From: Hyphomicrobium sp.
GTDB taxonomy: Bacteria > Pseudomonadota > Alphaproteobacteria > Rhizobiales > Hyphomicrobiaceae
Length of the DNA stretch: 50,769 nt
NCBI GenBank assembly: GCA_002928395.1
Contig: PEQZ01000003.1
Location: 1 to 50,769 of the forward strand
Reading direction: 5' to 3'
Shown: positions 16,140 to 21,126 of the stretch, piece after piece
Layout of the letters: each line of letters opens with the position of its first letter
Position numbering within the stretch: the first letter of the stretch is position 1
Translations under genes and position numbers: made by a program
The notes under the pieces: generated by a model
Told to the model about the DNA's origin: nothing
The model's input: only the letters and a program-made list of their open reading frames with translations
Database searches by the model: none

Positions 16140-17351
16140 ATGACAGCCTCCTGGCCCACGATCAAGACCGGCGCCACGACCAACCTGGACGCAAGTTCGG
16201 CGCTCGTTCCGGCTGACGTTGTCAGCAAATCCACGACGGGCGGAGCCTATCGCGTGACCCGGATCGATGGCACGCGCGAGGTGCGGGCGCGGATCGCTTT
16301 GGCGGCGAACGACTGCACCGCGACGGTGTTCCAGTCCGAGCCGTGGCTTGCCGCCATTGGGCGCGGGCTTGCGCGCGACGGGTGTGGCGAACTCGTGGCC
16401 CTGGACGTCGCGGACGCCTCCAACGGCGAGCGCGTTGCGCTGCTGCCACTCACCATTGCACGTGAGAGGCGGCGCACCGTCGCGCGCTTTGCCGACCTCG
16501 ACGTGTCGGACTATCGCGGGCCGCTGCTCGGTCCGGCCGCGCCTCAGGACATGGCCGGGGAACGTGCATTGTGGGCAGCGGTCAAGCGCGGCTTGCCGGG
16601 GGTCGATCTGATCCGCTTCGAGGCGATGCCGGCCGAGATCGGCGGGCGGCCGAACCCTTTGGCACGACGCCATGACGCAACGCCTGCCCGCCTCAAGGGG
16701 TTCAGTGTCAGAATCGAGACGACGGTCGAAGCCATGCTGCGGGACCGCGGCAAGAAGTACCGCAAGGAAGCCGAGCGCTGCTTCCGGCTGCTGGAGAAGG
16801 AAGGCGCGCCGAAGTTCCGCCGAGCGGAAACGCCCGACGAGATCAACCGCGCCTATGCCGTGCTCGAGGCCCAGCAGAGTGCGCGGCAGATGGCGATCGG
16901 ACACGCATACGTGCTGGATCAGCCGCAATACTATGAGTTCTACCGCGACCTCTTGATGACCGAGCGCGAGAGCGGGTTCGCGGCAATATTCACGCTCGAA
17001 GCGGGGCCCGAGGTCGTGGCCGCGCTGATGGGCGTGGTGCGCGGCGACACGTTCACGCTGTTGCGCATCTCGAATGGCGGCGAGAAGTGGCAGCATCTGT
17101 CGCCCGGCCGGTTGATCGTGATCGAGGCCATGCGCCACTTCGTCGAGCGCGGCATTCGCACCTTCGACATGGGTGCCGGCGACTATCCGTTCAAGCGCGG
17201 GTTCGGAGCGGTGGAGACAGAGCTTTTCGATTTGGTGGCGGCGTGCTCGCTGCGCGGATTGCCGACAATCGCAGTCGAGCGGTCGAAGACGTTCGTGCGC
17301 CAGAGGCCGGTGTTGATGGCGGCGATCGGGCGGCTGCGCGGGAAGGCGTAG
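16140..17351 (+). CDS. CelD/BcsL-family GNAT acetyltransferase
   Basis: The 403-residue product belongs to the double-GNAT, FemAB-like group often called the cellulose biosynthesis (CelD) family. An N-terminal half (TVFQSEPWLAAIGRGL, VALLPLTIARERRRTVARF) is followed by the GNAT core (KYRKEAERCFRLLEKEG, VVAALMGVVRGDTFTLLRIS) and the signature TFDMGAGDYPFKRGFGA near residues 340-356. Members attach acyl or aminoacyl groups to polysaccharides or small metabolites. No cellulose-synthesis gene is nearby; the only partner is the JmjC-like gene upstream. The ATG at 16140 has a GGGG stretch before it. Confidence 0.75.
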   Translation: MTASWPTIKTGATTNLDASSALVPADVVSKSTTGGAYRVTRIDGTREVRARIALAANDCTATVFQSEPWLAAIGRGLARDGCGELVALDVADASNGERVALLPLTIARERRRTVARFADLDVSDYRGPLLGPAAPQDMAGERALWAAVKRGLPGVDLIRFEAMPAEIGGRPNPLARRHDATPARLKGFSVRIETTVEAMLRDRGKKYRKEAERCFRLLEKEGAPKFRRAETPDEINRAYAVLEAQQSARQMAIGHAYVLDQPQYYEFYRDLLMTERESGFAAIFTLEAGPEVVAALMGVVRGDTFTLLRISNGGEKWQHLSPGRLIVIEAMRHFVERGIRTFDMGAGDYPFKRGFGAVETELFDLVAACSLRGLPTIAVERSKTFVRQRPVLMAAIGRLRGKA

Positions 17352-17390
17352 GTCCGGCGTGTGCGGCGCAAGGGACGCAGCCCCGCCGAA

Positions 17391-17482
17391 TGTCATCCTC
17401 GGGCTTGTCCCGAGGACCCATTCAGCCGCTGATGCCGGCATGCGTGGAGCGATGGATCCTAGGCAAAAGGCCTAGGATGACA
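17391..17482. repeat. dispersed palindromic repeat between genes
   Basis: The element opens with TGTCATCCTCGGGC and closes with GCCTAGGATGACA, forming an imperfect inverted repeat with internal GGGCTTGTCCCGAGGACC and ATGGATCCTAGGC. Elements of this look (GTCATCCTCGGGCTTG...CCCGAGGACCCAT) are common dispersed repeats in Hyphomicrobiales genomes. It sits in the 277-bp gap before hisS, about 146 bp from its start. I saw no second copy in the window. It may form a long hairpin in RNA. Confidence 0.65.
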
Positions 17483-17628
17483 CCGTAACCCAACCGCTGA
17501 GCCTCAAACAGTTGCGCGCAGGTTTGCGGCGGGGGCACGATCCGCTATAAGGCCCACCACAGCAGATTCCTGCCCCGCCGCCCGGCTACCGAGGCCACCC
17601 GCGGGGCCGCAAGGACCGTTCACACACG

Positions 17629-19248
17629 ATGGTAAAACAGAACAAGAACTCGGGTCCGGAAGCCCGGCTGCCCAAGGGCTTTCGCGACATCGAGGCCGAC
17701 GAGATCCGCGTTTCGCAGGCAATGCTCGCGACCATCCGCGAGGTGTATGAGCGCTATGGCTTCGAGCCTCTGGAAACGCCGGCGCTCGAGTACACGGATT
17801 GCCTGGGTAAGTTTCTGCCCGACCAGGATCGGCCGAACGCGGGCGTGTTCTCTTTCAGTGATGAAGACGATAGCGAGCGCGGCTTGCTGCGCGGAGCCAA
17901 CGACGAGCGCGGCTTGCTGCGCGGAGCCAACGACGAGCGCGGCTTGCCGCGCGGAGCCAACGACGAGCGCGGCTTGCTGCGCGGAGCCAACCAAACGTGG
18001 ATGAGCCTGCGCTACGACCTGACCGCGCCGCTCGCCCGCTATGTCGCCCAGAATTCCGCGACGCTGCCGAAGCCGTTCCGGCGGTACGCGGTTGGCTCGG
18101 TGTTCAGGAATGAGAAGCCGGGGCCGGGTCGGTTCCGCCAGTTCACGCAGTTCGACGCCGATACGGTCGGCACCGACAACGTCGCCGCCGACGCCGAGAT
18201 GTGCATGCTGGCGGCGGACACGCTGGAGGCGCTCGGCATCGCGCGCGGCGACTATGTGATCAAGGTCAACAGCCGCAAAGTGCTGGATGGTGTGCTCGAA
18301 CTCGCCGGCGTCGATCCCGTCGATCCGGCCCAGGCCGGCAAGCGGCTCACCGTGCTGCGGGCGATGGATAAGTTCGACAAATTCGGTGTCGAAGGCGTCG
18401 CGCTATTGCTCGGCAAGGGGCGCAAGGACGAGAGCGGCGATTTCACGCCGGGAGCGGGGCTGGAGCCAAAGGCGATCGAACTGGTCACATCGTTTCTCGC
18501 GGCGTCCGCGGGCGACCGCAGCGGGACCATAGCGCGGGTGACACCGATCCTCGATGGTAACGCGCGCGCCGTCGACGGCATGGCGGAACTGAGCCAACTC
18601 GATGCGCTGGTCCGTTCGGCGGGCTACGAAAGCCGGCAGATCACGTTCGACCCCTCGGTCGTGCGCGGCCTCGAATACTACACCGGCCCGGTGTTCGAGG
18701 CGGAATTGACGTTCCAGGTGAAGGACGACGACGGCAACCCGGTGCGCTTCGGCTCGGTCGGCGGCGGCGGGCGATACGACGATCTCGTTTCCCGTTTCAC
18801 GGGCGAAAAGGTGCCGGCGACCGGCTTCTCGATCGGCGTTTCGCGATTGCAGGCCGCGCTCACCGTGCTCGGCAAATCCAGTGCAAAAGCAACGCTCGGC
18901 CCGGTGGTCGTCCTCGTCATGGACAAGGCCGAAATCGGAGCCTACCAGCGGCTGACGCAGACGCTGCGCAACGCCGGTATCCGCGCGGAGATGTACCTCG
19001 GCACGTCGGGCATGAAGGCGCAGATGAAATACGCCGACAAGCGCAACAGCCCTTGCGTGGTGATCCAGGGCTCCGACGAACGCGCCAAGGGCGAGGTCAC
19101 GCTGAAAGACCTGATCGAAGGCGCGAAAGCCGCGTCCGCCATCAAGGACAACAAGGAATGGAAGGACGCGCGGCCGGCGCAGGTGGCCGTCAAGGAGGCC
19201 GATCTCGTGGCCGAAGTACGCGCGATCCTGGCCCGGCACGAAGGCTGA
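17629..19248 (+). CDS. hisS: histidyl-tRNA synthetase with a 40-residue repeat insert
   Basis: HisRS charges tRNA-His. The class II motifs are clear: [19 protein letters not shown] (motif 2 region), the histidine-binding [12 protein letters not shown] and GGGGRYDDL, and [10 protein letters not shown] (motif 3). The sequence matches the divergent alphaproteobacterial HisRS lineage, whose tRNA-His lacks the usual extra G-1. Between FSFSDEDDS and [13 protein letters not shown], where relatives have a short turn (DDDEQW), residues 83-122 are four copies of [10 protein letters not shown]. Without them the length is 499, normal for the family. The frame is open throughout and hisZ follows after 4 bp, so the gene is presumably active with the insert looping out of a beta-hairpin. 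Confidence 0.95.
17875..17994 (+). repeat. four tandem 30-bp repeats inside hisS
   Basis: Copies lie at 17875-17904, 17905-17934, 17935-17964 and 17965-17994. The unit begins GAGCGCGGCTTGCTGCGC. Copy 3 has one T-to-C change (Leu to Pro), and copy 4 differs only in its last codon (GAC to CAA). The unit length keeps the reading frame, and other frames through the block also stay open. Within each unit GGCT and AGCC can pair across ten bases. The near identity points to recent expansion by slippage or unequal exchange. Confidence 0.97.
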
Positions 19249-19252
19249 TCCC

Positions 19253-20431
19253 ATGGCTGCGGAGACGGCAAAGAAGTTCGAGGCGCTCGAACGGCAGGCA
19301 CAGACGCTGATGGGCGTGTTCGTCGCGGCCGGTCACGAGGCCGTGGCGCCGTCGATGATACAACCGGCGGACGTGTTTCTCGACGTCGTCGGCGAAACGC
19401 TGCGGGCACGCACTTACGTGTTCACCGACCATAACGGCGACGAGTTGTGCCTCAGGCCCGACCTGACGGTGCCGACCTGCCGGTTGCATCTCGAGCGCCA
19501 CCCCGAGGGCAATGTCGCAGCGAAATATTGCTACAACGGCCCCGCCTTCCGGTTCCAGCCGCAGGGTGCCGCGAGCACGCACCCGCGTGAATTCCGCCAG
19601 GCCGGGATCGAGGCGTTTGCGGCCGGCGACCGCGAGACCGCGGACGCTGAAACCGTCGCCACGATCATCAAGGCGATGAAAGCCGCGGGCCTCGGCGCGT
19701 TCAAACTCAGGATCGGCGATCTCGGATTGTTCAGCGCACTGTTGACGGCGAGCCAGATGCCGGAACGCTGGCGCACACTGCTCACGCACCAGTTCTGGCG
19801 GCCGGACGCCTTCCGGGCGGAATTGAAACGGCTGGTGTCGTCCCAGGCGGAGGCCTTGCAAGGGATTCCAGCCGAACTCGTGAGATCGCTCGACCCGGCC
19901 GAACCAGACGACGCCGAGAACACGGTCGGGCGCTATCTCGAACGGAGGGGTATCGAACTCGTCGGTGCGCGCTCGGTTTCGGAAATCACGGCAAGCCTGC
20001 TCGACATCGTGGCAGATGGCCGGGGGGTGCCCTTGCCTCGTCAGACCGCTGATGTGATCGAAACCTATCTCCAGGTGCGCGCGCCAGCGGATGCCGCCAC
20101 GGCGCGGATCGAGGATTTGTTGCGCGGCAAGGGTGTCGACATCACGCCCGCGCTCGACACGTTCGATCGCCGCCTCGCGCTATTGGCGGACGCCGGTGTC
20201 GATCTCGCTCATACAGAGTTCTCGGCAGAGTTCGGCCGCTCGCTCGAATACTACACGGGCTTCGTGTTCGAGATCGCCGTCCCTGGGCTCGGCCCCACGA
20301 GCCCGGTGGCCGGCGGCGGCCGCTATGACAGTTTGATGCACGCGGCCGGAGCACAAAAAGACGTGGCGGCCGTGGGCGCGGCGATACATACCGAACGGCT
20401 GCTGGCGGCCATCGAAGGAGCCAACCGATGA
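19253..20431 (+). CDS. hisZ: ATP phosphoribosyltransferase regulatory subunit HisZ
   Basis: HisZ is a HisRS paralogue without charging activity. It joins short HisG to make an active, histidine-regulated ATP phosphoribosyltransferase, the first step of histidine synthesis. The 392-residue product keeps the catalytic-core fold ([57 protein letters not shown]). It starts 4 bp after hisS, and its TGA overlaps the hisG ATG (20428-20431). The hisS-hisZ-hisG order is typical of Hyphomicrobiales and puts tRNA charging and histidine synthesis on one message. Confidence 0.93.
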
Positions 20432-21126
20432 ATGAGCGGCTGGTGCTTGCCGTGCCATCGAAAGGCCGGCTGATGGAACAGACATCCGAACTGCTGGCGG
20501 CAGCGGGGCTGCAACTGCGCAAGACCGGGCACGAGCGCGGCTACCGCGGCGAAATCGACGGCCTCGACGGGGTCGACGTGACGTTCATCTCGGCGTCGGA
20601 GATCGCAGCCCATCTCAAGACCGGCCGCGCTCACCTGGGCGTTACCGGGGAGGACCTGGTGCGCGAGCACATGGCGGACGCCGACGACCGCGTGACATTG
20701 GTCAAGAAGCTCGGCTTTGGACACGCCGATGTGGTGGTGGCAGTGCCACTGGGCTGGATCGACGTGCGCAACATGGCCGACCTCGACCGCATTGCACAGC
20801 CGTTTCGCCGCACGCACGGCCGCTGGTATCGTGTCGCCACCAAGTACCTCAATACGACGCGGCGTTTTTTTGCGGCGATGGGGGTGACCGACTACCGCCT
20901 CGTGGAGAGCCTCGGCGCAACCGAGGGCACGCCAGCAGCCGGCACCGCCGATCTGATCGTCGACATCACGTCCACGGGTGAGACGTTGCGCGCCAACGGC
21001 CTGAAGATTCTGGACGACGGCGTCATCCTGAAGTCGGAAGCCAATCTCGTTGTCTCGAACACAGCCGGCTGGACCCCATGCACGGAGCGGACGCGCGATG
21101 AGATCTTGGCCCGGCTCGGAGTTTGA
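20428..21126 (+). CDS. hisG: ATP phosphoribosyltransferase catalytic subunit HisG, short form
   Basis: HisG joins ATP and PRPP to start histidine synthesis. At 232 residues it is the short form, which lacks the C-terminal regulatory domain and needs HisZ. Visible features are [10 protein letters not shown] at the N-terminus, [10 protein letters not shown], and the PRPP-binding [18 protein letters not shown] near residues 172-190. The start overlaps the hisZ stop (ATGA), so synthesis of the two subunits is probably coupled. Confidence 0.95.

Follow-up and report, generated by a model that had tools for sequence, protein, structure and literature searches.

How did four nearly identical in-frame units come to stand inside hisS, the gene of an essential enzyme? 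Either a stretch of the gene was duplicated on the spot, or a sequence able to enter genes has settled there. The array lies in a 50,769-nucleotide stretch of contig PEQZ01000003.1 from a Hyphomicrobium sp. (the window), whose genome, a 2.32 Mb assembly that is 76% complete, is called G000 in this comparison.

A Four-Unit Array within hisS

Four in-frame 30-bp units were located at positions 17875-17994 of the window, adding about 40 residues to the histidyl-tRNA synthetase (HisRS). TRF reports the array at 17874-17991 with a period of 30, 3.9 copies, 97% matches, 0 indels and a score of 229, by far the highest of the window (the remaining five rows score 45-55). The whole array falls within the ORF at 17629-19248, in agreement with the four in-frame 30-bp repeats described in an earlier note on this DNA. 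The features are the following, all on the forward strand:

17629..19248, +, hisS, histidyl-tRNA synthetase, 539 aa, insert-bearing (Pfam tRNA-synt_His 3.8e-38, HGTP_anticodon 1.8e-9)
17872..17904, +, first unit including the 5' AGC codon, 33 bp
17875..17904, +, unit 1
17905..17934, +, unit 2, same sequence as unit 1
17935..17964, +, unit 3, single base change (CCG), perfect palindrome GCGCGGCTTGCCGCGC
17965..17994, +, unit 4, ERGLLRGAN + Q, two bases differ, final codon CAA for GAC
20428..21126, +, hisG, without insert in G000 (Pfam HisG 9.5e-39)

The array begins GAC GAT AGC and continues with GAG CGC ... AAC units linked by GAC. It is placed just before the conserved SLRYDLTAP stretch of HisRS, probably at a turn between two strands, judging from the alignment and from the known structure of HisRS. 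A structure prediction from a three-row alignment had a mean pLDDT of 35, and the viral contigs searched for further HisRS rows gave no relative. Rfam gave 0 matches up to E 1 across 17300-18200. When the 30-mer was searched with up to 3 mismatches in the 2.32 Mb of G000, all 4 occurrences were in the hisS array, and the reversed control gave 0.

The gene 3' of hisS also matches Pfam tRNA-synt_His and is followed by hisG; we take it to be HisZ-like from its position. Between the upstream gene and hisS, at 17393-17482, is a REP-like palindrome pair, TCATCCTCGGGCTTGTCCCGAGGA ... TCCTAGGCAAAAGGCCTAGGATGA, presumably of a type common in this order.

The block had also been described as open in other reading frames, and all 6 of its 6 frames are indeed open. 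The same is true of 596 of the 1466 (41%) in-frame 30-mers taken from hisS, hisZ, hisG and the preceding gene and repeated four times. Six-frame openness was rejected on this count as the mark of a special element.

The Same Codon of hisS in Related Genomes

A HisRS search of 103 family genomes gave a match in 94, and the insert site was assessed in 56 of these, 30 by direct reading and 26 from tblastn pieces. The latter were taken from among the matches listed, and two pieces (query to 81; query from 121-124) abutting within 3 bases were scored as no comparable insert. Three of the 56 genomes carry the insert: G000 with four units, G001 with one and G017 with three. The other 53 are without it, so the 40 residues are not an unrepeated stretch common to all relatives, and the 27 directly read genes among them have short turns only at this place, for example DEDEQW. 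The number of units, for which variation between strains had been suggested, thus differs between species in this comparison, which covers one genome per species.

The closest relative among the compared genomes is G001 (Hyphomicrobium sp. isolate FW.3.32, PERT01000038.1; 98% complete), with a HisRS 94% identical to that of the window. It carries a single unit at the same codon, as expected if the expansion in G000 is recent. Between the two genes dN/dS is 0.09 and dS 0.39; hisS is under purifying selection. G001 has only one HisRS, plus the HisZ-like match, and contains no second copy of the unit within 2 mismatches. G017 (Alphaproteobacteria bacterium isolate THP_Bin_1, JAGVSR010000037.1) belongs to another genus, and three 33-bp units are found in its hisS at the codon used in G000 and G001, encoding the peptide DSERGLPSGANASERGLPSGADASERGLPSGAS. 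The hisS of G003, a genus-mate of G000, has no unit and reads DEDETW at the site. Both named records with the hisS insert (G001 and G017) are metagenome assemblies, and in G001 a longer array could have collapsed into the single unit.

At the nucleotide level, G001 reads GAT GAC AGC GAG CGC GGC TTG CCG CGC GGA GCC AAC CAA, and G017 reads GAT GAC followed by three repeats of AGC GAG CGA GGC YTG CCG AGC GGA GCC RRC, with GCA after the first two. The AGC codon stands before each unit of the G017 hisS array and is absent before units 2-4 of G000. The left edge of the insert, 14 bases (GATGACAGCGAGCG), is identical in G001 and G017, and the first 27 bases of unit 3 of G000 are those of the sole G001 unit. 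A 24-base pattern with two N, spanning both versions, had exact matches only in the contig records of G001 and G017, in a scan that may not have covered the window's own genome. One occurrence in G014 at 2 mismatches was judged to be chance, as it is a single copy and the control matched too.

Copies at Other Loci

The core of the unit is GCGAGGCTTGCCGAGCGGAGC, and the G000 and G001 versions differ from that of G017 and G003 at 2 bases. In G017 the core was found without mismatch in hisS and with one mismatch in hisG. The HisG of this genome starts MSTQSLPSGANSSERGSPSGANSSERGSPSGAN ahead of the conserved stretch, that is, with three units, the first of them degenerate, right after the start codon. 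The array sits immediately after the ATGA overlap of the HisZ-like gene and hisG. No such N-terminal stretch is present in the hisG of G000, G001 or G003.

Outside recognisable genes, G003 carries the core five times, at two places and with spacings of 34 and 35 bp, and two of these copies share 21/21 bases with a G017 hisS unit:

G003:C11, between a 444-aa ORF (no Pfam match) and gatC, array of three units
G003:C8 (L046 1497-1590), upstream of a class-V aminotransferase gene, array of two clear units and a degenerate third

The aligned ATG of gatC is preceded by a gap of 223 bases in the array-bearing G003 and of 76 bases in G001, which has no array there. Upstream of the aminotransferase gene, no array was found in G000, G001 or G002, the DNA being alignable only near the gene. 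An ORF on the opposite strand over the aminotransferase-side array has no Pfam match. This array adjoins TTGACG...TATAGC, which looks promoter-like by eye and is common to G002. The gatC-side array ends in a hairpin-like inverted repeat, GCCCAAGG...CCTTGGGC (L052 1594-1614).

The unit therefore recurs at other loci, genes free of it exist, and one, three or four copies occupy a given codon. Support for an element of the kind suggested comes from the presence of the sequence elsewhere, in the hisG of G017 and in the two arrays of G003 outside recognisable genes. The period is 30 or 33 in coding arrays and 34-35 outside genes. The left edge is marked by ATGA in hisS of G001 and G017, and likewise in hisG of G017; we treat it as no more than a lead, because it is missing at the arrays of G003.

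With up to 1 mismatch, the 21-base core was found in G003 alone among 397 genomes of the order, a sample to which G017 does not belong. With up to 2 mismatches, 30 of the 397 genomes matched, 27 of them outside the genus; the reversed control matched in 28, so that chance matches equal the control at this level, and the units of G000 and G001 also lie 2 mismatches away from this core. At 3 mismatches genuine copies can no longer be told from the control in any of the five genomes. Among 102 family genomes, a 20-base core matched in 30 with up to 2 mismatches and in four with up to 1: G003 (5), G017 (5), G042 (1) and G102 (1), the single matches of the last two having no tandem neighbour. Copies of the unit are few overall: 4 of 102 family genomes have between 1 and about 6 each.

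A 116-base array of G003 used as query against the 102 family genomes found both G017 arrays (E 1.4e-16 and 7e-4) and missed the G000 and G001 units. Their kinship with the units of G017 and G003 is suggested by the codon and the peptide that they have in common and by the 24-base pattern. The same query gave seven weak further genomes (9 in total), of which six were judged to be chance and one was a REP-like palindrome in G042. This palindrome, GTCATCCCGGGC...ACCCGGGATCC at G042:C13:1222096-1222115, has a version of the 20-base core, GCGAGGCTCGCCGAGCGAAG, in its loop. Such a loop is a possible origin of the unit, from a single case.

At the level of the class, 385 genomes were searched with a 33-residue peptide, and 13 of them gave matches at E <= 0.1, at 16 places. 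Two of these are the window's array, and 11 of the other 14 were read and judged to be chance (L120, L123 and L126 being the unread ones). The exact core pattern had 0 matches in viral contigs, and viral carriage was rejected. Plasmids gave 3 weak matches, the best at E 0.03, and these lie in genes with other functions. The element was not found described in the literature when the unit was searched as text or among the matches listed on hisS repeats, Hyphomicrobium palindromes and small dispersed repeats.

Palindrome and Folding

Among the versions seen, the core is a perfect palindrome only in unit 3 of G000 and in the unit of G001. Folding z-scores of six stretches were -1.21, -0.91, -1.60, -2.42, -0.62 and +0.07. 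The lone lower value, -2.42, is that of the G017 hisG array, for which 2 of 200 shuffles were as good. A hairpin as a conserved feature was rejected, folding being unremarkable across the six stretches.

One Entry into hisS or Two

HisRS trees were built from 26 of the 30 read genes, L029, L031, L039 and L041 having been dropped by a motif filter; L024, which was kept, has its start cut off by a contig end. With the insert removed, G003 groups with G000 and G001 (97/93). G017 is placed elsewhere, weakly (83/81), beside g15 genomes, five of which are in the tree, none with the insert. Since the insert-bearing lineages stand apart, the insert either entered one codon twice or was lost several times. 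A single clade of G000, G001 and G017 was rejected for the whole HisRS (p-AU 0.0036) and after exclusion of the middle part, where G003 diverges (p-AU 0.005); it was not rejected on the 167 N-terminal columns alone (p-AU 0.18). By the identities of HisZ, HisG, the aminotransferase and GatC, G003 is nearer to G000 and G001 than G017 is. Whole-HisRS identities of G003 and G017 are level (75% and 76%), because the middle part of G003 is divergent. Indeed, the middle of G003 HisRS (L014) is 50% identical to that of G000, against 85-86% for the N and C parts, and the G000-G017 middle is 73% identical. This suggests that the middle of G003 HisRS is a replaced or fast-changing domain.

The balance leans slightly towards two entries at one codon over one old entry with several losses. 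That the insert entered once, in the ancestor of both genera, and was lost elsewhere is itself a version of the dispersed-element reading and compatible with it; we consider it a serious possibility, somewhat short of an even chance. The same codon, frame and orientation, the shared 14-base left edge and the result on the N-terminal part are as a single entry would leave them, but the two rejections of the single clade count against it. It would moreover require clean losses in G003 and further lineages, and slippage cannot remove the final unit of an array. The insert could instead have passed between the hisS genes of the two lineages by homologous recombination over a short tract, given the identical site and left edge, and given that codons 10-30 after the site agree at 54/60 bases between G001 and G017 and at 49/60 between G001 and G003. 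However, in most comparisons the other flanks of G001 and G000 resemble those of G003 as much or more, the insert is not surrounded by any long tract in which G001 and G017 are especially alike, and the unit sequences differ between the lineages, which makes such a transfer unlikely.

The four-copy state is probably younger than the split of G000 and G001, since its units differ at 1-2 bases while dS between the two hisS genes is 0.39. The 33-bp form appears to be the original one, from which the 30-bp form of G000 would have lost one AGC codon.

Origin and Growth of the Array

We think it probable that the units belong to a small, dispersed, low-copy tandem element of Hyphomicrobium-type bacteria, which inserts in frame into genes and grows in place. 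A unit of about 33 bp (AGC GAG CGM GGC TTG CCG MGC GGA GCC AAC plus one codon) would have entered hisS in frame. Arrays of this kind ordinarily grow by slippage or unequal exchange, and in the G000 lineage growth to four units may have come about through replication slippage or unequal recombination among neighbours, one AGC codon being lost on the way (33 to 30 bp). In its spread to other loci, another copy would serve as partner for recombination or template switching. Selection would merely filter, leaving in-frame arrays at tolerant places; it probably acts in this way, given periods of 30 and 33 in genes and of 34-35 outside them. The insert most likely brings no benefit to HisRS and is neutral. 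No end structure, enzyme or clear target duplication was seen at the copies, and their small number counts against a mobile element. We regard as less likely than not the stronger proposal of a mobile 33-bp minisatellite that went twice into the same hisS codon, in separate lineages, and once into the start of hisG, and that is tolerated because its ERGLPxGAN peptide is harmless there; it would be a tandem counterpart, in free-living bacteria, of the elements found inside rickettsial genes.

A purely local minisatellite, in which a HisRS loop was duplicated by slippage and any likeness elsewhere is chance or composition, would account for an array that is the sole copy within 3 mismatches in the 76%-complete G000, and for the lack of a second copy within 2 mismatches in G001. 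The failure of the G003 array query to find the G000 and G001 units slightly raised this reading and slightly lowered that of a dispersed element. Yet the hisS of G017 and two places in G003 have the core free of mismatches, the hisG of G017 has it with one mismatch, and the unit sits at the same hisS codon in both genera while insert-free genes show short turns. The dispersed copies largely contradict a local origin, unless they are contamination, and we hold it to be quite improbable. Less probable still is that the repeated ERGLxxGAN peptide is useful to HisRS and was selected. Frame and peptide are retained in three genomes, with a similar peptide in the HisG of G017, but 53 of 56 family genomes do without the insert, the copy number is 1, 3 or 4, and a near-identical sequence lies outside genes in G003. 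Finally, draft contigs and a short tandem repeat invite the suspicion of an assembly artefact. We give this almost no credence, as the units bear distinguishing bases and G017, assembled separately and from another genus, carries three units of its own at this codon.

Rickettsia is the best-known source of repeats that sit inside genes in this manner. The dispersed element favoured here is a low-copy, clade-restricted case, housed in an essential enzyme and seen in empty, one-, three- and four-copy states, so that the order of entry and growth could be worked out and tested. Should the double entry at one codon be true, the question becomes how so short a sequence finds its target.

Comparison with Known Repeat Systems

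Ordinary VNTRs are taken as local. The element resembles them in tandem units whose length is divisible by 3 and in a copy number that varies between related genomes (4, 1 and 3 at one hisS codon), as in minisatellites; it differs in that the unit recurs at other loci. Like REP sequences it is small and dispersed, and the G042 REP-like palindrome carries the 20-base core in its loop. REPs are extragenic palindromes, whereas the units here are also found inside genes, are in direct tandem and lack a conserved palindrome, the window's array lying within hisS and folding unremarkably.

Rickettsia palindromic elements (RPEs) are in-frame repeats in unrelated housekeeping genes that also occur outside genes and at the same place across orthologues of different species, hot spots being one of two explanations for RPE-4/6/7 (PMC3767692, PMC10969869). 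They are about 100-150 bp long, palindromic and numerous, with 44 gene insertions in R. conorii (PMC10969869). The element shares the in-frame insertion (hisS of G000, G001 and G017; hisG of G017) and the same place in orthologues, with possible hot spots. It differs in its short unit of 30-35 bp, well below the RPE length, in the lack of a stable hairpin or a consistent palindrome, in its tandem units and in a copy number of 1 to about 6 in each genome (G000 being 76% complete) instead of many. The likeness to RPEs drawn in the earlier note is thus fair in the sense that the element may work like one; the palindromic character and the argument from open frames found no support.

MIRUs are tandem, with variable copy number and longer units. 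They are reported to be dispersed short repeats, apparently mobile, that insert at start codons with a -4 nt spacing and carry their own small ORF (PMC12548453). The start-codon position with the -4 nt overlap fits the G017 hisG array; the hisS arrays and both G003 arrays do not fit. The unit here extends HisG and HisRS in frame, whereas a MIRU brings its own ORF. By analogy, the element would work like RPEs and MIRUs while failing defining features of RPEs. Compared with MIRU by description only, it would be a further variant among in-gene repeat elements, standing beside RPE and MIRU as a member of neither.
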